Notes under the pieces: model-generated | Seen by the model: only the letters and a program-made list of their open reading frames with translations | What the model was told of the DNA's origin: nothing | The model's database searches: none | Part shown: positions 22,114 to 33,048 of the stretch, piece by piece | Numbering within the stretch: the first letter of the stretch is position 1 | Layout: each line of letters opens with the position of its first letter | NCBI RefSeq assembly: GCF_023555375.1 | Contig: NZ_JAJSEE010000004.1 | Location: 186,001 to 250,000, forward strand | Reading direction: 5' to 3' | Origin: Guyparkeria hydrothermalis | GTDB lineage: Bacteria > Pseudomonadota > Gammaproteobacteria > Halothiobacillales > Halothiobacillaceae | DNA length: 64,000 nucleotides | Program-made: the position numbers and the translations under genes

Positions 22114-22557
22114 CTACCAGGATTTGTAGGGCAGGAACTTGCCGTTCATGGTGATCACGACGCGATCGCCGGCGGGGTTGACCTCGCGGTCGACGTCGAG
22201 CGAGAAGTCGATGGCACTCATGATGCCGTCGCCGAATTCCTCGTGGATCAGCTCCTTCATGGTCGAACCATAGACGCCCACGACCTCGTAGAGGCGATAG
22301 ATGAGCGGGTCGGTCGGCACGGTCTGTTCCCAGGTCTTCATGGGGCAAGCCTCGATCGCGGCCTTGGCCTCGGCGGGCAGTTCGAGGATCGCGATCAGCT
22401 TGTCGGCGAACTCGGGCTTGAGGCTGTTCATGCCCAGACAGGCCGAGGTGACGAACGTCGGGGACAGGTCTACGCCACTGGCGATATCGGCCCAGGACAG
22501 GCCGAGCGCGGTCTTCTTTTCCAGGATCAGGTCGGTCAGTGCTTGCTTGGTCATCAT
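22114..22557 (-). CDS. cynS: Cyanase (cyanate hydratase)
   Basis: A 147-residue cyanase. It catalyses cyanate + bicarbonate to carbamate + CO2; the carbamate then decays to ammonia and CO2. The conserved active residues are Arg88 and Glu91 (LIYRLYEVVGVYG) and Ser114 (GDGIMSAIDF). The N-terminal region is the expected HTH-like fold (LGLSWADIASGVDLSPTFVTSACLG). Starting at 22557 (MMTKQ) gives a GGAG eight bases upstream; an upstream in-frame ATG at 22611 has no such site. The gene is divergent from the OsmC-flavoprotein operon. A near-consensus sigma54 box lies about 70 nt upstream of its start. By consuming bicarbonate and releasing CO2 and ammonia it couples carbon and nitrogen supply. Confidence 0.96.
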   Translation of the reverse strand: MMTKQALTDLILEKKTALGLSWADIASGVDLSPTFVTSACLGMNSLKPEFADKLIAILELPAEAKAAIEACPMKTWEQTVPTDPLIYRLYEVVGVYGSTMKELIHEEFGDGIMSAIDFSLDVDREVNPAGDRVVITMNGKFLPYKSW

Positions 22558-22624: not shown

Positions 22625-22640
22625 TACAAGAAGCCTGCCA
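22625..22640 (-). promoter_or_regulatory. Near-consensus sigma54 promoter for cynS
   Basis: Reads TGGCAGGCTTCTTGTA on the minus strand. GG and the -12 pair are exactly 10 bases apart, but the -12 GC is GT. It lies 68 nt upstream of the cynS start. Confidence 0.5.
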
Positions 22641-22704: not shown

Positions 22705-22756
22705 CCCGACATTGTCCGCCCCACGCCGGCGAAAGCCCCGACATTGTCCGACAATG
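22705..22756. promoter_or_regulatory. Candidate enhancer (activator-binding) sites
   Basis: Direct repeats of CCCGACATTGTCCG at 22705 and 22737, the second within a perfect 7-bp-arm palindrome centred at 22749. A 12-of-13 match to the same word lies at 29744 upstream of the ABC importer's sigma54 promoter. The likely ligand is the sigma54 activator at 27994-29688. Confidence 0.65.
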
Positions 22757-22826
22757 CCTGCCCCACCCTGGGGCAGCGCCATGCACCAGCCCTTCCAAAC
22801 GGCGCCACAACGCCATTTCCGGTTCT

Positions 22827-22842
22827 TGGCACAGCCTCTGCA
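22827..22842 (+). promoter_or_regulatory. Sigma54 promoter for the osmC-flavoprotein operon
   Basis: TGGCACAGCCTCTGCA fits the TGGCAC-N5-TTGCA consensus with GG and GC separated by 10. It lies 80 nt before the OsmC start codon. Confidence 0.82.
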
Positions 22843-22921: not shown

Positions 22922-23485
22922 ATGAGCACAGCAACCGCCCAACCCGTCGCCCCGTCCTGCATCCGCCAGGCGATCAAGGAAATCGATGCCGACGGCCTCA
23001 ATGCCCTGAGCGAGAAAGGCAAGGCCAACCCGGACGCGGTGGTCACGCTCAAGGCGAAGACCGTCTGTGAAGGCCGTTTCCGCAACCTGACCTACATCCG
23101 TGATCTCGACCCGGTGGTGGTCGACGAGCCGCCGCACCTGCTGGGCGACGACACCGCCCCGAACCCGTCCGAGGCCTCCCTGGCCGCGCTGGGCGCCTGC
23201 CTGGCCGTCGGCGTGCACGCCAATGCCACCGCGCGCCAGATCAAGATCAGCAAGCTCGAGCTGAACATGGAAGCGGACATCAACGTCACCGCCGTCTGGG
23301 GCACGGGTGACCTCGACGAATCCAAGCCGCTGGGCTTCACCGCCATCCGCGTCTACTTCGACGTCGAGACGGTCGACCCGATCAGCCAGGAAGACCTGCA
23401 GGATCTGCTGGACACCGCCGAGAAGTGGTCTCCGGTGGCCAACACCATGACCCGTCCGGTCGACCTCTCCTGCCATCTCGCCTGA
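22922..23485 (+). CDS. OsmC-family protein lacking the second redox cysteine
   Basis: A 187-residue OsmC/Ohr-fold protein. It has the central helix motif LAALGACLAVGVHANA (Cys93) and a C-terminal segment KWSPVANTMTRPV. In peroxidatic OsmC/Ohr enzymes a second Cys occupies the position of Ser170 here (usually CPV or similar), so the thiol-disulfide peroxidase cycle looks unavailable. Cys48 and Cys13 are other possible thiols. OsmC-like proteins also serve in thiol and sulfur chemistry without peroxidase activity. It is the first gene of the sigma54-controlled operon, 58 nt before the flavoprotein. Its actual activity is unknown. Confidence 0.82.
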   Translation: MSTATAQPVAPSCIRQAIKEIDADGLNALSEKGKANPDAVVTLKAKTVCEGRFRNLTYIRDLDPVVVDEPPHLLGDDTAPNPSEASLAALGACLAVGVHANATARQIKISKLELNMEADINVTAVWGTGDLDESKPLGFTAIRVYFDVETVDPISQEDLQDLLDTAEKWSPVANTMTRPVDLSCHLA

Positions 23486-23543: not shown

Positions 23544-24695
23544 ATGAATCTCGCCACCCACGACACCGTGGCGGCCCGTCCCACCGTGGCCCCGCCCGAC
23601 GTACCGGCGTTCCTGAAAACCGACGCGGCGCCCGACCTCGACACAGTGATTCGCCGCGCCCTCAAGCCCAAGGTGATCGCGATCGATCACGGCGAATACC
23701 CCGCCGACCTGTTGCACGAAATCGGTGCGGCCGGAGCCTATCGCCACCACCTCGCCTCACAGAACCCGGCCGGCATGGATATCGCCGCGGCCATCGACGA
23801 CATGGACCGCATCTCGGCCGAATGCATGTCCACCGGCTTCATGACCTGGTGTCAGGACGCCGTGGCCTGGTACGTCGAGAACTCCGACAACCAGCACTTG
23901 AAGGACACCGTCCTGCCGAAGCTCGCCAGCGGCGAACTGCTCGGTGGCACCGCCCTGTCCAACCCGATGAAGTACTTCGCCGGCATCGAGGACATCCTGC
24001 TGCACGCCGAGGAGACCGCCGACGGCTTTATCGTCAACGGCAACCTGCCGTGGATCTCGAACCTGGGCGAGCACCATGTTTTCGGATCGATCTTCCGCGT
24101 CGAAGGCGACAACCCGCGCGACGTGATGGCGCTGGTACACACCGACACGGCCGGGCTTTCCATCAAGCAACTGGTCGAGTTCTGCGGCATGGAGGGCACC
24201 GGCACCTACGCCCTGTTCTTCGAGGATGTCTTCATCCCCAAGAACGAGATCATTGCCGACCCGGTCGGCCCGTTCCTGCAACGCATCAAGGCGGGCTTCG
24301 TCCTGCTTCAGGCGGGCATGGCCACCGGCGTGATCGAGGGATGCATTCGCCTGTGCGAAGACGTCGAGCCGCGCCTGGGGCACATCAACGCCTACCTCGA
24401 CGACCGCCCCGACGAACTGCGCGAGGCCCTGGAAGACACCCGCGCCCTGGTGCGCGAACTCGCCACCGACGTGCACAACCCCGACCCGGCCTATTTCCGC
24501 CAGGTACTGGAACTGCGACTGGCCGGCTCCGAGCTCGCGCTGCGCGCGGCCAACAGCGCGATGCTGCACACCGGCGCGAACGGCTACCTCGTCGATGCCC
24601 CGGCCCAGCGCAAGCTGCGCGAGGCCTATTTCGTCGCGATCGTGACCCCGGCGATCAAGCACCTGCGAAAGGAAATCGAGGCGTTGATCGACTGA
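23544..24695 (+). CDS. Acyl-CoA-dehydrogenase-fold flavoprotein, probably not an acyl-CoA enzyme
   Basis: A 383-residue protein of the acyl-CoA dehydrogenase superfamily. FAD-binding-domain segments are recognisable (GTALSNPMKYFAGIEDILLHAEETADGFIVNGNLPWISN and the later HTGANGYLVDAP). The usual YEG catalytic Glu motif near the C-terminus is replaced: the last region reads AQRKLREAYFVAIVTPAIKHLRKEI. This pattern is closer to the group of flavin monooxygenases built on the ACAD fold (DszC/SfnB-like) than to beta-oxidation enzymes. With a rubredoxin reductase two genes on, it could be an oxygenase or oxidoreductase acting on a small sulfur- or nitrogen-containing compound. The ATG follows GGAGG. 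The substrate is unknown. Confidence 0.78.
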   Translation: MNLATHDTVAARPTVAPPDVPAFLKTDAAPDLDTVIRRALKPKVIAIDHGEYPADLLHEIGAAGAYRHHLASQNPAGMDIAAAIDDMDRISAECMSTGFMTWCQDAVAWYVENSDNQHLKDTVLPKLASGELLGGTALSNPMKYFAGIEDILLHAEETADGFIVNGNLPWISNLGEHHVFGSIFRVEGDNPRDVMALVHTDTAGLSIKQLVEFCGMEGTGTYALFFEDVFIPKNEIIADPVGPFLQRIKAGFVLLQAGMATGVIEGCIRLCEDVEPRLGHINAYLDDRPDELREALEDTRALVRELATDVHNPDPAYFRQVLELRLAGSELALRAANSAMLHTGANGYLVDAPAQRKLREAYFVAIVTPAIKHLRKEIEALID

Positions 24696-24699
24696 TCCC

Positions 24700-24894
24700 A
24701 TGTGCCGCTACCCGGTCATTGCCATGCCTACCCCACGGATGCGCGCCGTCTTGCCGCTCATGTTCACCGGCAGCCTGCTCGCCTGGCTCGGTATCGCCGC
24801 GATCGACGTGACCCGGCCCAAGGCCGAGCCGCGTCCCCCAACGACCGTCTACGAACTGAACGAAACCAAGGTGACCCGCCATGAACACGCCTGA
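24700..24894 (+). CDS. Small single-span membrane protein within the sigma54 operon
   Basis: 64 residues, or 56 if the start is the ATG at 24724 ([10 protein letters not shown]). It has one hydrophobic segment ([21 protein letters not shown]) and a short polar tail. It sits 5 nt after the flavoprotein stop and overlaps the start of the rubredoxin-reductase gene by 14 nt. Tight packing and the membrane segment suggest it is real and might anchor or assist the electron-transfer proteins. There is no family match that I recognise, and the start lacks a strong ribosome site. Confidence 0.45.
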
Positions 24895-26284
24895 CGACGA
24901 CATCCGCTGGATCTGCACCGTCTGCGGCTGGATCTACGACGAGGACGAGGGCGACCCGGACAGCGGCATCGCACCGGGGACCCGCTTCGAGGACATCCCC
25001 GACGACTGGTACTGCCCGCTGTGCGGGGTGACCAAGGCCGATTTCATGCCCCTGCACGAGTACGCCGCCCAGCGCGCCGCGCAGAACGGTGCCCCGCGGC
25101 CGCGCGCGGCACAGGGCGGCGTGGGCGGTCCGGACTCGGTGGTCATCGTCGGCGCCGGCATCGCCGGCTGGACGGTCGCCGAAGAGCTTCGGGCCCGCGA
25201 CCCCGACCGCCCCATCACCCTGATCAGCAACGACGAGGCGGCCGCCTACACCAAGCCGGGTCTGTCGATGGCGATCAGCCAAGGCCGCGCCCCGGAAGAT
25301 CTCGTCGAGCAGAGCGGGCCGGCCAAGGCCGCCGAACTGGGCATCACCCTGCAACCGAACACCTCGGTGCTGGCGCTGAACACCGACGGCAAGCGCCTGC
25401 TGACCACCCGCGGCCCGGTCCACTACGGGGAGCTGGTGCTCGCCCTCGGTGCCCGCCAGCGCTTTCGCGCCTTCGACGGCGATGCCGCCCCTCGCATCAC
25501 GCGGCTCAATCATCTCGCCGCCTACCAGCGCCTGCGCGCCCGTCTCGACGGCGAACCGCGCCACGTCACCATCATCGGCGCCGGGTTGATCGGCGTGGAA
25601 CTGGCCGAGGATCTGACCGCCGGCGGCCATCGCGTCACCGTGCTCGATCTCGGCGAACGCCCGCTCGACCGGCTCGCCCCCGCGCCGCTGGGCGACGAGC
25701 TGGGGCGGCATCTGGCCGCCAAGGGTGTCGACTTTCGCCCTGGCATCAGCCTCGCCCGCGTCGACCCGGCCGACGAGCGCCTGAAGGTCACGCTGACCAA
25801 CGGCGGGGAAATCCGCACCGACGAGGTGATCTCGGCGATGGGGCTGGTGCCCAACACCGATCTGGCCAACCGCGCCGGGCTGGTCACCAACCGCGGCATC
25901 CTCGCCTCGGCGCAGACCATGCAGACCAGCGACCCGCACGTCTACGCCGTAGGCGACTGCGCCGAGATCGAGGAGCGCAGCTATTTCTTCATCGAGCCGA
26001 TCCGCCGCATGGCCACGACCGCCGCCGCGGCCCTGAATGGCGACTGTGAGCCATTCGAACACCGCCCGGCCGCGATTCGCGTCAAGACCCCCAGCCTGCC
26101 GATCATGCTCTGCCCACCCGACCGCCGGCTTGCCGACCTGGGCCGCTGGACCCCGCACACCGTGGCCGAGGGCCAACGCAACGACTTCGTCAGCCGCGGC
26201 CAACTCGCCGGCTACGCCCTGGCCGGCAAGGCGGTCAGTGAACACGAATCCCTTTACCGGCGCGTCACGGGACGCGTCAGTTGA
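24881..26284 (+). CDS. Rubredoxin fused to FAD/NAD(P)-dependent rubredoxin reductase
   Basis: A 467-residue fusion. Residues 10-55 are a rubredoxin domain with the iron ligands Cys12, Cys15, Cys45 and Cys48 ([19 protein letters not shown] and [10 protein letters not shown]). From residue about 87 a pyridine-nucleotide-disulfide-oxidoreductase-fold reductase follows, with FAD motif [14 protein letters not shown](P) motif [18 protein letters not shown] and the late FAD-binding [10 protein letters not shown]. It should pass electrons from NAD(P)H to its own rubredoxin and on to a partner, here plausibly the ACAD-fold flavoprotein. AAGGTGA precedes the ATG. Natural rubredoxin-reductase fusions occur but are not the usual alkane-hydroxylase form, and no alkane hydroxylase is present here. 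Confidence 0.92.
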
Positions 26285-26347
26285 GGTGGTCCCACCCATC
26301 GACCACCGCCTAGCCACCCACCGGGCCAGAAGCCCCAGGAGCACCCC

Positions 26348-27205
26348 ATGAGCAACCCCCTGATCGAACCGCAGGATCTCAAGTCACTCGATCCCGGTGC
26401 CATCGTGCCGATCGACACGCGCAGCCCCGAGGCCTACGCCGCCGGGCATCTGCCGGGGGCGATCAACATGCCGGAAATCTTCACCTTCCTGGCCACTTCA
26501 ACCCCGGAAGGGCTGGCCGAACTCGAACAACGGTTCAGCGACAAGTTCGGTGCAGCCGGGCTGGATGGCAACAAGGTGGCCGTGCTCTACGAGGACGCCA
26601 TGGACACGGGCTTTGGCCAGTCCTGTCGCGGCCTGTTCCTGCTCGAACACCTCGGCTACCCCAAGGACAAAATCAGCATCCTGCACGGCGGCTTTCAGGG
26701 TTGGGTGGCAGCCGGCCTGCCGGTCAGCACCGACTCACCGGCCCCGGTGGCCGCCGCCTTTCCGCTCGACAGCAGCGCCAGCGACGTCATGCTGGACAAG
26801 GACGACGTGCTCGCGGCCCTGGAGCGCGATGACGTGGTCCTGCTCGACGTGCGCGACGTCGACGAGTGGATCGCCGAGAGCTCCTCGCCCTACGGCAAGG
26901 ATTTCTGTCCGCGCAAGGGGCGTCTGCCTGATGCCAAGTGGATCGAGTGGTATCGCTTCATGAAGCCCGGCGACGTCGCACGCTTCAAGTCACCGGCCGA
27001 GATCCGTGCCGAGTGCGACAGCGTCGGCATCTCGCCGGATTCCGAGGTGTTCCTGTACTGTTTCAAGGGCGCGCGGGCGTCGAACACGCTGGTCGCCCTG
27101 CGCGCGGCGGGCATCGAGAACGTGCGCCTGTACTTCGGCTCCTGGAACGAGTGGTCGCGTGACCCGAGCCTGCCGATCGAGGAAGGCCTGCCCTTCGTGG
27201 CCTGA
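26348..27205 (+). CDS. Two-domain sulfurtransferase (rhodanese family)
   Basis: 285 residues with two rhodanese domains. The C-terminal domain has the active-site loop YCFKGARAS, with Cys238 and Arg243, in the spacing of a persulfide-forming loop. The N-terminal domain keeps a Cys (Cys93 in FGQSCRG) near the equivalent loop, which is unusual because this domain is often inert. Rhodaneses transfer sulfane sulfur from thiosulfate or mercaptopyruvate to cyanide or thiol acceptors. Its place in a sigma54 operon divergent from cyanase suggests a link between sulfane sulfur and cyano or carbamoyl chemistry; thiocyanate or a thiol metabolite is possible, but this is inference. It is the last gene before a hairpin. 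Confidence 0.88.
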   Translation: MSNPLIEPQDLKSLDPGAIVPIDTRSPEAYAAGHLPGAINMPEIFTFLATSTPEGLAELEQRFSDKFGAAGLDGNKVAVLYEDAMDTGFGQSCRGLFLLEHLGYPKDKISILHGGFQGWVAAGLPVSTDSPAPVAAAFPLDSSASDVMLDKDDVLAALERDDVVLLDVRDVDEWIAESSSPYGKDFCPRKGRLPDAKWIEWYRFMKPGDVARFKSPAEIRAECDSVGISPDSEVFLYCFKGARASNTLVALRAAGIENVRLYFGSWNEWSRDPSLPIEEGLPFVA

Positions 27206-27243
27206 ACCTGACGCGCCCCTGCGGCGCCAAGGCATTTCAGTGG

Positions 27244-27268
27244 GGCCCGGCATGCCGGGCCTTTCTTC
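27244..27268 (+). terminator. Probable intrinsic terminator after the sulfurtransferase
   Basis: A stem GGCCCGGC / GCCGGGCC with an AT loop is followed by CTTTCTTCT. It separates the sigma54 operon from the GST gene. Confidence 0.6.
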
Positions 27269-27316
27269 TGCGGGCCGAACGGACGTCCGCCCCGACCCAC
27301 TCCCGGAGACACCGCC

Positions 27317-27964
27317 GTGAGTTCGATTACGCTCTACGACTTCCCCCTGTCCGGCAACTGCCACAAGGTGCGACTGCTGCTCTCGATGCTCGATTTGGAG
27401 TATGAGCGCGCGCCCATCGACGTCGTCGCCAAACAACCCGCCTCGCCCGAATTCAAACGCATCGACCCGCGCGGCCAGGTGCCGTTCCTGGTCGACGGCG
27501 AGGTGCGCATCTGGGACTCGATGGCGATACTGATCTATCTCGCACGTCGCTACGGCACCCGCCGATGGCTCCCCGACGAACCGGCCGCCGAGGCGGCCGT
27601 GATGCAGTGGCTGGCCGTAGCCGGTGACGAACTCCTCTACGGCTTGGCCCGTGCCCGCGCCGTCTGGCGGCTCGGTGCCCCATTCAACCGCGAACAGTGC
27701 CAGCAGGAGGGACGCGCCGGGTTGGCGTTGATGGAGCAACGCCTCGAACAGGCCGACTGGCTCGCCGCCGACCATCCCACCATCGCCGATCTGGCCTGCT
27801 ACCCGTACGTGGCACTGGCCGACGAGGCCGGCGTGTCGCTGGCCCCCTACCCGGCCATCGGCCAGTGGATCGCACGGGTCGAGGCCCTGCCCGGCTACCT
27901 GCCCTTGATCGAACAGAAAGACGGAAACGCAGGAAAAGCGTCACCGCCACCAGCTTCTTCCTGA
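27317..27964 (+). CDS. Glutathione S-transferase family protein
   Basis: A 215-residue two-domain GST starting at GTG 27317, with GGAG upstream. The N-terminal thioredoxin-fold domain reads MSSITLYDFPLSGNCHKVRLLLSMLDLEYE. Its catalytic Ser-Gly-Asn region fits Theta/Zeta-like bacterial GSTs, and FKRIDPRGQVPFLVDGEVRIWDSMAILIYLARRY holds the glutathione-binding cis-Pro and Asp/Ser pair. The C-terminal helical domain includes the conserved ADHPTIADLACYPYVAL. It could conjugate or degrade an electrophile produced by the upstream pathway. Its own ribosome site and a hairpin upstream mean co-transcription with the sulfurtransferase is uncertain. Confidence 0.9.
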   Translation: MSSITLYDFPLSGNCHKVRLLLSMLDLEYERAPIDVVAKQPASPEFKRIDPRGQVPFLVDGEVRIWDSMAILIYLARRYGTRRWLPDEPAAEAAVMQWLAVAGDELLYGLARARAVWRLGAPFNREQCQQEGRAGLALMEQRLEQADWLAADHPTIADLACYPYVALADEAGVSLAPYPAIGQWIARVEALPGYLPLIEQKDGNAGKASPPPASS

Positions 27965-27993: not shown

Positions 27994-29688
<1,695 letters not shown>

Positions 29689-29947
29689 GGGGGCTCCGGG
29701 TCTGAAGGAATGACATTCCCGGAAGTGCAAGAAGCGGACCTAAGACTTTGTCCGCCATTGGCGGGCATTGCGCGGCGATACGGCCCTCACCGACGCACCA
29801 AGAACGGGATCGATCCCCCGCCACCGCTCCCTCCTGGTGCGAAAATGCGTCATTTTCGGCCAATTCGCGTTGATCTGGCGCAAACGAGCGGTGTGGCACG
29901 GCATCTGCAATCTCGAGGTCGTCACTCACCGACCCGAGAGCGAAACC
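29689..29947. promoter_or_regulatory. Divergent region between sigma54 activator and ABC importer
   Basis: 259 non-coding bases with the sigma54 promoter for the importer at 29894-29909 and, 145 nt upstream of it, the enhancer-like sequence GACTTTGTCCGCC at 29744-29756. That word lies in an imperfect inverted repeat TGTCCGCC-ATT-GGCGGGCA (29749-29767, one mismatch). Confidence 0.72.
29894..29909 (+). promoter_or_regulatory. Sigma54 promoter for the ABC importer
   Basis: TGGCACGGCATCTGCA has the canonical GG-N10-GC spacing. It is almost the same as the box at 22827 and lies 39 nt before the start codon. Confidence 0.85.
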
Positions 29948-31324
29948 ATGTCCACATTCGATAACCCGTTCGATCCCGACCAGTCACTGCACCGCGGCTG
30001 CACCTGCGGCAAGCACGCCAGCCAGGCGGACCACAATGCCGCCATCGGCGCCAGCCCGAACCCGACCGACGAAGAGGCCGCCCTCAACCGCGCCGTGGAA
30101 TCCTCGGTCATGCGCTCGCTGTTCCCGGAAGATCGGACCCGTCGCAACTTCATCAAGGCCGTGGGCGTGAGCACGGCGATGGCCGCCGTCTCGACCTTCT
30201 TCCCGATGGCTGCCGCCAAGGCCATTGCCGCCGATCCGGCCGGGCCGCTGGAGAAGAAGAAGCTCAAGGTCGGTTTCATCCCGATCACCTGCGCCACGCC
30301 GATCATCATGGCCCACCCGATGGGCTTCTACGAGCGCGAAGGCCTCGACGTCGAGGTGGTCAAGACCGCCGGCTGGGCACTGATTCGAGACAACGTCGCC
30401 AATGGCCAGCTCGACGCCTCGCACATGCTCTCGCCGATGCCGATCTCCGCCTCGCTCGGGGTCGGCGCGCGTCAGCAGGACACCTACGTCGCCACCATCC
30501 AGAACATCAATGGCCAGGCGATCACGATGCACAACAAGCACAAGGAGAATCGTGATCCGAGCAACTGGAAGGGCATGACCTTCGGCATCCCCTACGACCA
30601 CTCGATGCACAACCTGCTGCTGCGCTACTACCTCGCCGAGCACGGCGTCGACCCGGACCAGGATGTCCAGCTCAAGGTCATCGCCCCGCCGGAGATGGTC
30701 GCCAACCTCAAGGCCGGCAATATCGACGGCTTCCTCGGCCCCGAGCCGTTCAACCAGCGCGCGGTCTACGAGGGCGCCGGCTTCATCCACGTGCTGTCCA
30801 AGGATCTCTGGGACGGCCATCCCTGCTGCGCCTTCGGTGCAACCAGGAGCTTCGTCGAGGAAAACCCCAACACCTTCTCCGCGCTGTTCCGCGCCATTGC
30901 CAGCGCCACGGTCTACGCGCACAAGAAGGAAAACCGCCCGGAGATCATCGAGGCGATCGCCCCGGCCAACTACCTCAACCAGCCGAAGATCGTGCTCGAC
31001 CAGGTGATGACCGGCCGCTACGCCGACGGGTTGGGCAACATCATCGAGGAGCCCGAGCGTGCCGACTTCGACCCGTTCCCGTGGGAATCGATGGGCGTGT
31101 GGATCCTCACGCAGATGAAGCGCTGGGGCTACATCGAAGAAGAGATCGACTACGCCGACATCGCCGAGGAGATCTTCCGCGCGACCGACGCGCGCCAGCG
31201 CCTGGCCGAGATGGGCCTGCCGGCACCCGAGATCAACAGCAAAAAGCACATGATCATGGGCAAGGAATTCGACCCGGCACGCCCGCAGGCATACCTCGAA
31301 TCGTTCGAGATCGGGAGGGCCTAA
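29948..31324 (+). CDS. ABC importer substrate-binding protein, NrtA/CynA/CmpA type, Tat-exported
   Basis: 458 residues. A long N-terminal region includes CTCGKHASQADH (Cys18, Cys20) and a twin-arginine signal, DRTRRNFIK with Arg65-Arg66, followed by a hydrophobic stretch (AVGVSTAMAAVSTFFPMAAAKA). The mature domain is the NMT1/NrtA-like binding fold (LKVGFIPITCATPIIMAHPMGFYEREGLDVEVVKTAGWALIRDNVANGQLDASHML). This family binds nitrate, nitrite, cyanate or bicarbonate. The Tat signal sits unusually deep (60 residues). The sigma54 link to cyanase favours cyanate or a related nitrogen compound over bicarbonate, but the neighbouring DAB system leaves bicarbonate open. The start ATG is at 29948. Confidence 0.87.
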   Translation: MSTFDNPFDPDQSLHRGCTCGKHASQADHNAAIGASPNPTDEEAALNRAVESSVMRSLFPEDRTRRNFIKAVGVSTAMAAVSTFFPMAAAKAIAADPAGPLEKKKLKVGFIPITCATPIIMAHPMGFYEREGLDVEVVKTAGWALIRDNVANGQLDASHMLSPMPISASLGVGARQQDTYVATIQNINGQAITMHNKHKENRDPSNWKGMTFGIPYDHSMHNLLLRYYLAEHGVDPDQDVQLKVIAPPEMVANLKAGNIDGFLGPEPFNQRAVYEGAGFIHVLSKDLWDGHPCCAFGATRSFVEENPNTFSALFRAIASATVYAHKKENRPEIIEAIAPANYLNQPKIVLDQVMTGRYADGLGNIIEEPERADFDPFPWESMGVWILTQMKRWGYIEEEIDYADIAEEIFRATDARQRLAEMGLPAPEINSKKHMIMGKEFDPARPQAYLESFEIGRA

Positions 31325-31327
31325 ACC

Positions 31328-32170
31328 ATGAGCCAGTCACTGCGCTTACGCGCCGGCATCGTCTCGATTCTCCTGCTGCTCGCCTTCGTCGGCGCGTGGT
31401 GGGGGGCGACCCTGCCCACCCAGGTCGATCTGGGCGACATGGACCCCGAGTACGCCGCGATGATGGGGCTGGATACCGTCCAGGAATCCGACATCCCCAC
31501 CCCGGGGGATATTGGTTCGGCGATCTGGACGCACCTGTCCGATCCGTTCTACGTCTCGGGCTCCAACGACATGGGCATCGGCATCCAGCTGGCCCATTCG
31601 CTCTGGCGGGTGCTGGCCGGCTTCGCGCTCGCCGCGCTGGTCGCCGTGCCGTTGGGCTTCCTGATCGGCATGTCGCCGTTGATGCACAAGGCGCTGGCCC
31701 CCTACATCCAGATACTGAAACCCATCTCGCCGCTCGCCTGGATGCCGCTGGCGCTCTACATCATCCAGGACGCCTCGATCTCGTCGATCTTCGTGATCTT
31801 CATCTGCTCGATCTGGCCGATGATGGTGAACACCGCCTACGGGGTTGCCTCGGTCCGCGACGACTGGCTCGCCGTGGCCAAGACCCTCGAGGTCGGCCCG
31901 ATCAAGAAGGCGTTCCAGGTGATCCTGCCGGCCGCCGCCCCGACGATTCTCACCGGCATGCGCATCTCGATGGGCATCGCCTGGCTGGTCATCGTCGCCG
32001 CGGAAATGCTCGTCGGTGGTACCGGTATCGGCTACTTCATCTGGAACGAGTGGAACAACCTCGATCTCGCCAACGTGATCTTCGCCATCCTCTTGATCGG
32101 CGTGGTCGGCATGATCCTCGACATGATCTTCGGCTTGCTTGGCAAGGCCGTCAGTTATAAGGAGGTCTGA
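31328..32170 (+). CDS. ABC importer permease, NrtB/CynB type
   Basis: A 280-residue inner-membrane permease with about six spans. It carries the inner-membrane-component coupling region (MRISMGIAWLVIVAAEMLVGGTGIGYFIWNEWNNLDLANVIFAI), which follows the EAA-loop family pattern of NrtB/SsuC/TauC permeases. An extended N-terminal loop (DLGDMDPEYAAMMGLDTVQ) is slightly longer than usual. It lies 3 nt after the substrate-binding gene and 2 nt before the ATPase, so it is part of the same transcript. Confidence 0.92.
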   Translation: MSQSLRLRAGIVSILLLLAFVGAWWGATLPTQVDLGDMDPEYAAMMGLDTVQESDIPTPGDIGSAIWTHLSDPFYVSGSNDMGIGIQLAHSLWRVLAGFALAALVAVPLGFLIGMSPLMHKALAPYIQILKPISPLAWMPLALYIIQDASISSIFVIFICSIWPMMVNTAYGVASVRDDWLAVAKTLEVGPIKKAFQVILPAAAPTILTGMRISMGIAWLVIVAAEMLVGGTGIGYFIWNEWNNLDLANVIFAILLIGVVGMILDMIFGLLGKAVSYKEV

Positions 32171-32172
32171 CC

Positions 32173-33048
32173 ATGACTACCCCCGCATTCATCCAGGTCG
32201 ACGGCCTGGAGAAGACCTTCCCCGCGCCGATGGGCCAGGAACCGGTCACCGTGTTCCAGAACCTCGACTTCGAGATCGAAAAGGGCGAATTCGTCTGCCT
32301 GATCGGCCACTCCGGCTGCGGCAAGTCGACCATCCTCAACATCCTCGCCGGGCTGGACGCCGCGACCGACGGCTACGTCTTCATGGAGAACCGGCAAGTC
32401 ACCGGACCGGGCCTCGACCGCGGCGTGGTCTTCCAGGGCCACGCCCTGATGCCCTGGCTGACGGTGCGCGAGAACGTCGCCTTCGCGGTGAAATCCCGCT
32501 TCAAGCACCACTCCAAGGATGAGGTGAACGCGCAGGTGGAGAAGTACGTCGAGATGGTCGGCCTGTCGCACGCGATCGACAAGAAGCCGCACCAGCTCTC
32601 CGGCGGGATGCGCCAGCGCGTCGGCATCGCCCGGGCGTTCGCCATCGAGCCGAAGATGCTGTTGATGGACGAGCCGTTCGGTGCGCTGGATGCGCTGACC
32701 CGCGGCGTCATCCAGGACGAGCTGCTGGCGATCTGCCAGGCCACCGAGCAGACCGTCTTCATGATCACCCACGACGTCGACGAGGCGATCCTCCTGGCCG
32801 ACAAGATCCTGTTGATGACCAACGGGCCGTTCGCCGAGGTCGCCGAGTGCGCCTACAACCCGCTGAAAAAGCCGCGCTCACGTCAGGAAATGCATCACGA
32901 CGAGCACTACTACCCGTTCCGCAATCACCTGATGGATTTCCTGGTCAACGGGCCGAGCACGCCCTACGCGGACAAGGCGTCCGACGGCACGCCGGCGGCG
33001 ATGGAGGAGCCCCCCCGCAGCGGGCCCCGGCGGGTAGTCAACGCCTGA
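32173..33048 (+). CDS. ABC importer ATPase, NrtD/CynD type
   Basis: A 291-residue ATPase with Walker A GHSGCGKST, the Q-loop FQGHALMPWLTV, signature LSGGMRQRVGIARAFA, Walker B LLMDEPFGALD and the switch His in FMITHDVDEA. The 40 residues after the nucleotide-binding domain (HHDEHYYPFRNHLMDFLVN) match the NrtC/NrtD-type tail. It has no fused substrate-binding domain, so the importer is a three-gene NrtABD/CynABD-like system, not a four-gene Cmp/Nrt one with a fused regulatory ATPase. The stop is followed by an intrinsic terminator. Confidence 0.95.
   Translation: MTTPAFIQVDGLEKTFPAPMGQEPVTVFQNLDFEIEKGEFVCLIGHSGCGKSTILNILAGLDAATDGYVFMENRQVTGPGLDRGVVFQGHALMPWLTVRENVAFAVKSRFKHHSKDEVNAQVEKYVEMVGLSHAIDKKPHQLSGGMRQRVGIARAFAIEPKMLLMDEPFGALDALTRGVIQDELLAICQATEQTVFMITHDVDEAILLADKILLMTNGPFAEVAECAYNPLKKPRSRQEMHHDEHYYPFRNHLMDFLVNGPSTPYADKASDGTPAAMEEPPRSGPRRVVNA

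Follow-up and report, generated by a model that had tools for sequence, protein, structure and literature searches.

The two copies of the 14-bp word CCCGACATTGTCCG in the intergenic region between cynS and osmC of Guyparkeria hydrothermalis are likely to form an enhancer pair for the CynF-like activator encoded in the same cluster, acting at the osmC promoter and probably at that of cynS. The initial annotation of the 64-kb stretch of DNA that was analysed (hereafter the window) had placed an enhancer for the activator encoded at 27994–29688 between divergent cynS and osmC promoters, and this prediction is strongly supported by conserved sequence, position and linkage. Very probably, a conserved switch found in many sulfur-oxidisers lets one activator turn on the cyanate/OsmC cluster through sigma54 promoters.

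A repeated word and a palindrome between cynS and osmC

The two copies of CCCGACATTGTCCG lie at 22705–22718 and 22737–22750, with a start-to-start distance of 32 bp as originally described, and no other match with fewer than three mismatches was found in the window. By our own arithmetic, a given 14-mer would recur by chance within 400 bp about three times per million. The second copy overlaps with a palindrome of 15 bp at 22742–22756 (CATTGTC-C-GACAATG), whose 7-bp arms and position relative to the repeat had also been read correctly. A genome-wide search for the palindrome, which had been proposed as a check, returned a single exact match in 2.43 Mb, the next best having two mismatches. From the palindrome centre at 22749, the near edges of the cynS and osmC boxes are 109 and 78 bp away, close to the earlier estimates of about 110 and 85 bp.

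The 365-bp gap separates cynS, encoding cyanase (22114–22557, minus strand; above the cut-offs of NCBIfam PRK02866 and cynS), from the gene for an OsmC-family protein (22922–23485, plus strand; PF02566, E=2e-20), and contains, from left to right, the cynS box, site 1, site 2 and the osmC sigma54 box. Predicted enhancer site 1 (22706–22718, no strand) reads CCGACATTGTCCG, the genus consensus being CGGACATTGTCCG with 6-bp arms around a T. Predicted enhancer site 2 (22738–22759, no strand) reads CCGACATTGTCCGACAATGCCT, which is the 13-bp unit with a further half-site, and holds the palindrome. The two sites are almost midway between the boxes (site midpoint 22728, box midpoint ~22733), so that each promoter has one site about 72–83 bp off and the other about 104–115 bp. 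With respect to the osmC −24 element, the sites are 78 and 115 bp away, inside the range of 50–200 bp upstream expected of a bEBP enhancer. Between site 2 and the osmC box, a conserved inverted repeat, GCCCCACCCTGGGGC, additionally occupies 22760–22774; its form in two species, GCACCACCACGGRGC, comes close to an NtrC half-site pattern.

Conservation in Guyparkeria and the Halothiobacillaceae

In the intergenic alignment of ten Guyparkeria-group species, conserved islands coincide with the boxes of cynS and osmC and with the two sites between them. The conserved unit of the genus is the 13-bp CGGACATTGTCCG, present twice at 32 bp; the window genome has the slightly decayed form CCGACATTGTCCG in both places. 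Site 1 is near-invariant in the ten species, and the CGGACATTGTCCG core of site 2 is kept in the genus. Only the window genome and that of its nearest relative, Guyparkeria sp. SCN-R1, whose osmC is 99% identical to that of the window, have an intact right arm of the palindrome (GACAATG); the other species have GACACTG or GCCAATG. The expectation that the palindrome would recur across orthologous regions therefore holds for the 13-bp unit but not for the 15-bp palindrome, which is imperfect in eight of the ten species.

Across 27 genomes of the family, exact CGGACAWTGTCCG occurs at 16 places in 11 genomes, with the matches of each genome on one contig, and a reversed-pattern control gave none. 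Wherever matches were checked against the coordinates of osmC, they lie a short way upstream of it, and the sequence is absent from the family genomes lacking an osmC match; one assembly (G003) is only 64% complete and therefore uninformative in this search.

Because the CCCGACATTGTCCG repeat is conserved, it is clearly more than chance. Intergenic repeats do arise by chance and the first reading had one genome in view, but a chance or neutral duplication with no regulatory role is hardly credible when ten Guyparkeria-group species keep the same 32-bp spacing and when, in distant genera, the motif is about 14 times as frequent as in controls.

Promoters on either side of the sites

The osmC box (22827–22842, plus strand; TGGCACAGCCTCTGCA) has GG at −24 and GC at −12 with the correct spacing, and is the most conserved 16-mer of the intergenic region, as expected of a sigma54 promoter. 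It precedes an operon in which osmC comes first, followed downstream by acyl-CoA-dehydrogenase-like, rubredoxin-FAD reductase, rhodanese and GST genes (23544–27964, plus strand; Pfam). Judged from the sequence, enhancer function on the osmC side alone is highly likely.

The cynS side is less clear-cut. The probable promoter at 22625–22640 (minus strand; TGGCAGGCTTCTTGTA) has GG and TTG at the right spacing, and the −12 C is T or A family-wide. The Halothiobacillaceae share the element TTGGCA-N5-TTG, continued as TTGT or TTGA at −12 in every family member checked. Because the −12 C, which defines strong sigma54 promoters, is missing, the box is called no more than sigma54-like; as a sequence match alone it is common, with 167 matches in the window at that score or better. 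Of the two divergent sigma54 promoters originally proposed, that of osmC is thus canonical and that of cynS only likely. Interpretation of the cynS element as a sigma70 promoter was rejected by eye, because the orthologues show no conserved −10 element 17 bp from TTGGCA. Outside the Halothiobacillaceae, the cynS box of G081/L158 repeats the TTGTA form, also without the −12 C.

These features raise the alternative that the sites serve osmC only, that cynS is transcribed from another promoter and that TTGGCA-N5-TTG is either a defunct sigma54 box or an element of another kind. The absence of the −12 C from every cynS box checked in the family speaks for it, as do ZodW and LH_M38, which have ~260 bp inserted upstream of cynS. 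Against it, the cynS element is the third most conserved intergenic 16-mer and is kept across genera, a sigma54-like box with the same GCTTCTTG core lies upstream of the activator gene, and divergent cynS genes elsewhere have canonical sigma54 boxes together with the same motif (L107, L114, L115, L127, L174, L178). G217 has a perfect palindrome of 17 bp, ACATTGTCAGACAATGT, flanked on one side by a canonical box for cynS and on the other by a weaker, divergent one for osmC. The osmC-only arrangement is accordingly considered unlikely, though far from negligible. The canonical cynS boxes with the motif in other clades and the G217 palindrome make an enhancer shared by cynS and osmC the reasonably probable prediction. 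In two MAGs (L096, L098), ~260 bp of extra, mutually similar DNA lies between cynS and the conserved cynS box, possibly a small mobile or repeat element.

The activator and a probable second target at the transporter

The product of the gene at 27994–29688 (minus strand) has the GAF – AAA+ – Fis-type HTH architecture of a sigma54 bEBP (PF01590; PF00158, E=1.4e-69; PF02954, E=2.2e-12), with GAFTGA in the translation. It is closest to the NifA model, yet its 459.6 bits fall below the NCBIfam nifA equivalog cut-off of 528.85, and assignment as NifA was rejected. The genome has rpoN and seven other strong sigma54-activator domains, namely those of NtrC (above cut-off), of an NtrX-like protein and a PilR-like response regulator (by features), of two proteins without receiver and GAF domains, and of two left unclassified. 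No GAF domain was found in the five other bEBPs of the genome that were scanned. In the L089/G081 MAG, an in-frame TAA interrupts the activator gene, possibly an assembly error.

Divergent from the activator gene is an operon for a CynABD-like ABC transporter (NrtA/CynA-like binding protein, permease and ATPase; 29948–33048, plus strand; PF13379), preceded by a sigma54 −24/−12 promoter at 29894–29909 (plus strand; TGGCACGGCATCTGCA) whose core is identical in all Guyparkeria-group species. The gap also contains a second predicted enhancer block at 29746–29772 (no strand; CTTTGTCCGCCATTGGCGGGCATTGCG), near-invariant in the ten Guyparkeria-group species. Both gaps stood out in a scan of both strands of the window with a held-out model, a 13-bp half-site (ACATTGTCGAC) trained only on 50 osmC upstream regions from outside the family. 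The first rank went to 29743 in the activator–transporter gap and the second to site 1, with the two strands of site 2 at ranks 10 (plus) and 11 (minus). Together, the two gaps account for about 1% of the sequence scanned. Further, a sigma54 score of at least 19.5 is reached in the window by just two boxes, those of osmC and the transporter. The notion of one palindromic enhancer needs amendment: the enhancer reading stands, but there are two tandem sites, and the same motif is also present in the activator–transporter gap.

Two other elements of this gap may be mentioned. Upstream of the activator gene, AGGTCCGCTTCTTGCA at 29726–29741 (minus strand) has GG and TTGCA at sigma54 spacing; the box is kept in Guyparkeria and partly in Halothiobacillus. 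As its GCTTCTTG core is common to the cynS box, the activator gene may itself be sigma54-controlled. Conserved GCACC/GGTGC words at 29790–29850, upstream of the transporter promoter, resemble NtrC sites and are also seen in other genera, e.g., as GCACCATATTGGTTC in G015. Such NtrC-like words would fit ammonium repression as in Pseudomonas.

The motif in distant genera

The comparison set comprised 80 named loci, including those of Thioalkalivibrio, Thiobacillus, Thiohalocapsa, Acidithiobacillus, Thiomonas, Sulfuriferula, methanotrophs and others, plus additional genomes. In these, osmC and the acyl-CoA-dehydrogenase-like gene occur together with the activator gene and a cynABDS-like set, in arrangements that differ between loci, and the order osmC – acyl-CoA-dehydrogenase-like – rubredoxin-reductase is maintained among sulfur oxidisers. 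Outside the family, most loci have the activator gene linked to osmC. Of 87 osmC entries, among which some loci are represented twice, 79 have an upstream sigma54 box scoring at least 18; the eight without one are a contig edge, five methanotroph loci and two others.

Word counts were made in 59 non-redundant osmC upstream regions, and compared with 200 draws of same-locus control windows as well as with shuffles. ATTGTC/GACAAT is present in 51 of the 59 regions (control mean 3.6, maximum 9), ACAWTGT in 34 versus 0.9 in controls, and TTGTY(N)RACAA in 25 versus 0.3. The five methanotroph loci, which have no activator gene nearby, carry neither the sigma54 box nor the motif upstream of osmC and are a natural negative control. 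In the methanotrophs L166, L168 and L170–L172, where activator, box and motif are missing, osmC and the acyl-CoA-dehydrogenase-like gene lie inside an ABC-transporter gene set, a hint that the pathway handles a transported substrate.

The common dyad in other genera is cAcATTGTcgACAATgTg, often centred 76–120 bp upstream of the −24 element. Same-strand TGTC spacings peak at 9, 22, 32 and 41 bp, i.e., on one helical face, and the phasing resultant of 0.42 exceeds the maximum of 0.25 in 2000 uniform simulations, as tandem dyads in phase would give. As these peaks include 32 bp, the spacing in the window is typical of the system. Site 1 can be read as a full dyad only if the 13-bp frame particular to the genus is used; the TTGTCGACAA frame of other loci does not give one, and the odd spacing of Guyparkeria (TTGTCCGACAA) is 1 bp off the usual even-centred dyad. 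When started from odd-centred seeds, symmetric EM converged on AT-rich sequence and was discarded; an even-centred seed and a separate half-site model worked.

The motif (ACATTGTCGACAATGT) could also be bound by a different regulator, either a repressor or another bEBP, instead of the cluster activator. Binding by the activator is a prediction, and the genome encodes other bEBPs, among them NtrC and the PilR-like response regulator, the latter with a similar recognition helix. However, the motif and the activator gene occur together in both Gamma- and Betaproteobacteria, and loci lacking the activator do not have the motif upstream of osmC. The motif also adjoins the activator's own gene, and these observations render a different regulator improbable. 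Conservation of a motif together with the gene of its cognate bEBP is what a bEBP enhancer should display.

Comparison with known systems

Palindromic sites upstream of −24/−12 boxes are also the arrangement of the UAS for the Fis-type HTH activators NifA, NorR and FhlA. NifA sites have the consensus TGT-N10-ACA, from which the motif described here, TTGTC(C)GACAA, differs. For SfnR, no usable binding motif was found in the literature.

The closest parallel by gene layout is the cynFABDS system of Pseudomonas pseudoalcaligenes CECT5344. According to main-text passages of the report on that system, CynF is essential for cynABDS expression, which is induced by cyanate and repressed by ammonium (PMC6627978). 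Here as there, the genes of a sigma54 activator and of a cyanate-type ABC transporter diverge, the transporter genes are preceded by a sigma54 box, and cyanase belongs to the regulon, as predicted for the window (PMC6627978). The window and G052 both have the CynF-type layout, in which the bEBP gene runs divergently from cynABD(S) and cynA follows a sigma54 box; in the latter (G052/L046), the order activator, SBP, permease, ATPase, cynS is identical to that of cynFABDS as given in those passages (PMC6627978). By this layout, the activator resembles CynF. Unlike in cynFABDS, cynS has here moved beside osmC and is divergent from its operon. No CynF binding motif is given in the main-text passages searched (PMC6627978).

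For the arrangement of the sites, a precedent is available in Desulfovibrio vulgaris, where the bEBP DVU2106 and sigma54 drive the divergent orp1 and orp2 operons via palindromic sites between the promoters (PMC3897727). The predicted arrangement is alike in having palindromic sites between two divergent operons and one bEBP, but the orp activator and genes are different, and in the orp system each promoter is separated from the enhancer by IHF sites (PMC3897727). A sigma54 activator has further been noted in the thiocyanate-dehydrogenase cluster of SCN-R1 and Thioalkalivibrio (PMC6504805, PMC5744179). In the literature collection searched, no paper joined cyanase, OsmC and thiocyanate.

Proposed mechanism and implications

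Under the enhancer-pair reading, the GAF domain of the activator would sense an inducer, probably cyanate or a related compound, and the activator would bind both sites on one helix face. The DNA would then loop, allowing the sigma54 RNA polymerase at the osmC promoter to be remodelled, and the same activation would probably take place at the divergent cynS promoter. The activator would use the same motif before its own gene and the CynABD-like transporter.

The type of switch, a bEBP enhancer between divergent promoters, is known, while the motif and its target genes appear to be undescribed. More tentatively, one activator and ACATTGTC(C)GACAATGT might define an unnamed regulon of sulfur-oxidising Proteobacteria in which cyanase, a cyanate-type transporter and an OsmC/acyl-CoA-dehydrogenase-like/rubredoxin pathway are coupled; in the Halothiobacillaceae, the central site pair might drive both directions, with the cynS promoter retained as a weakened sigma54 promoter, lacking the −12 C, that sets the output ratio.

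For a CynF-like activator, the analysis predicts both a concrete binding motif and the set of target genes in several genera (Guyparkeria, Halothiobacillus, Thioalkalivibrio, Thiobacillus, Thiohalocapsa, Acidithiobacillus and Thiomonas), which are relevant to the treatment of thiocyanate and cyanide waste. Further, shared regulation ties the uncharacterised OsmC/acyl-CoA-dehydrogenase-like operon to cyanate metabolism and thereby makes its function testable. Finally, the cynS–osmC region would offer a natural case of one enhancer pair for two divergent sigma54-type promoters of unequal quality.
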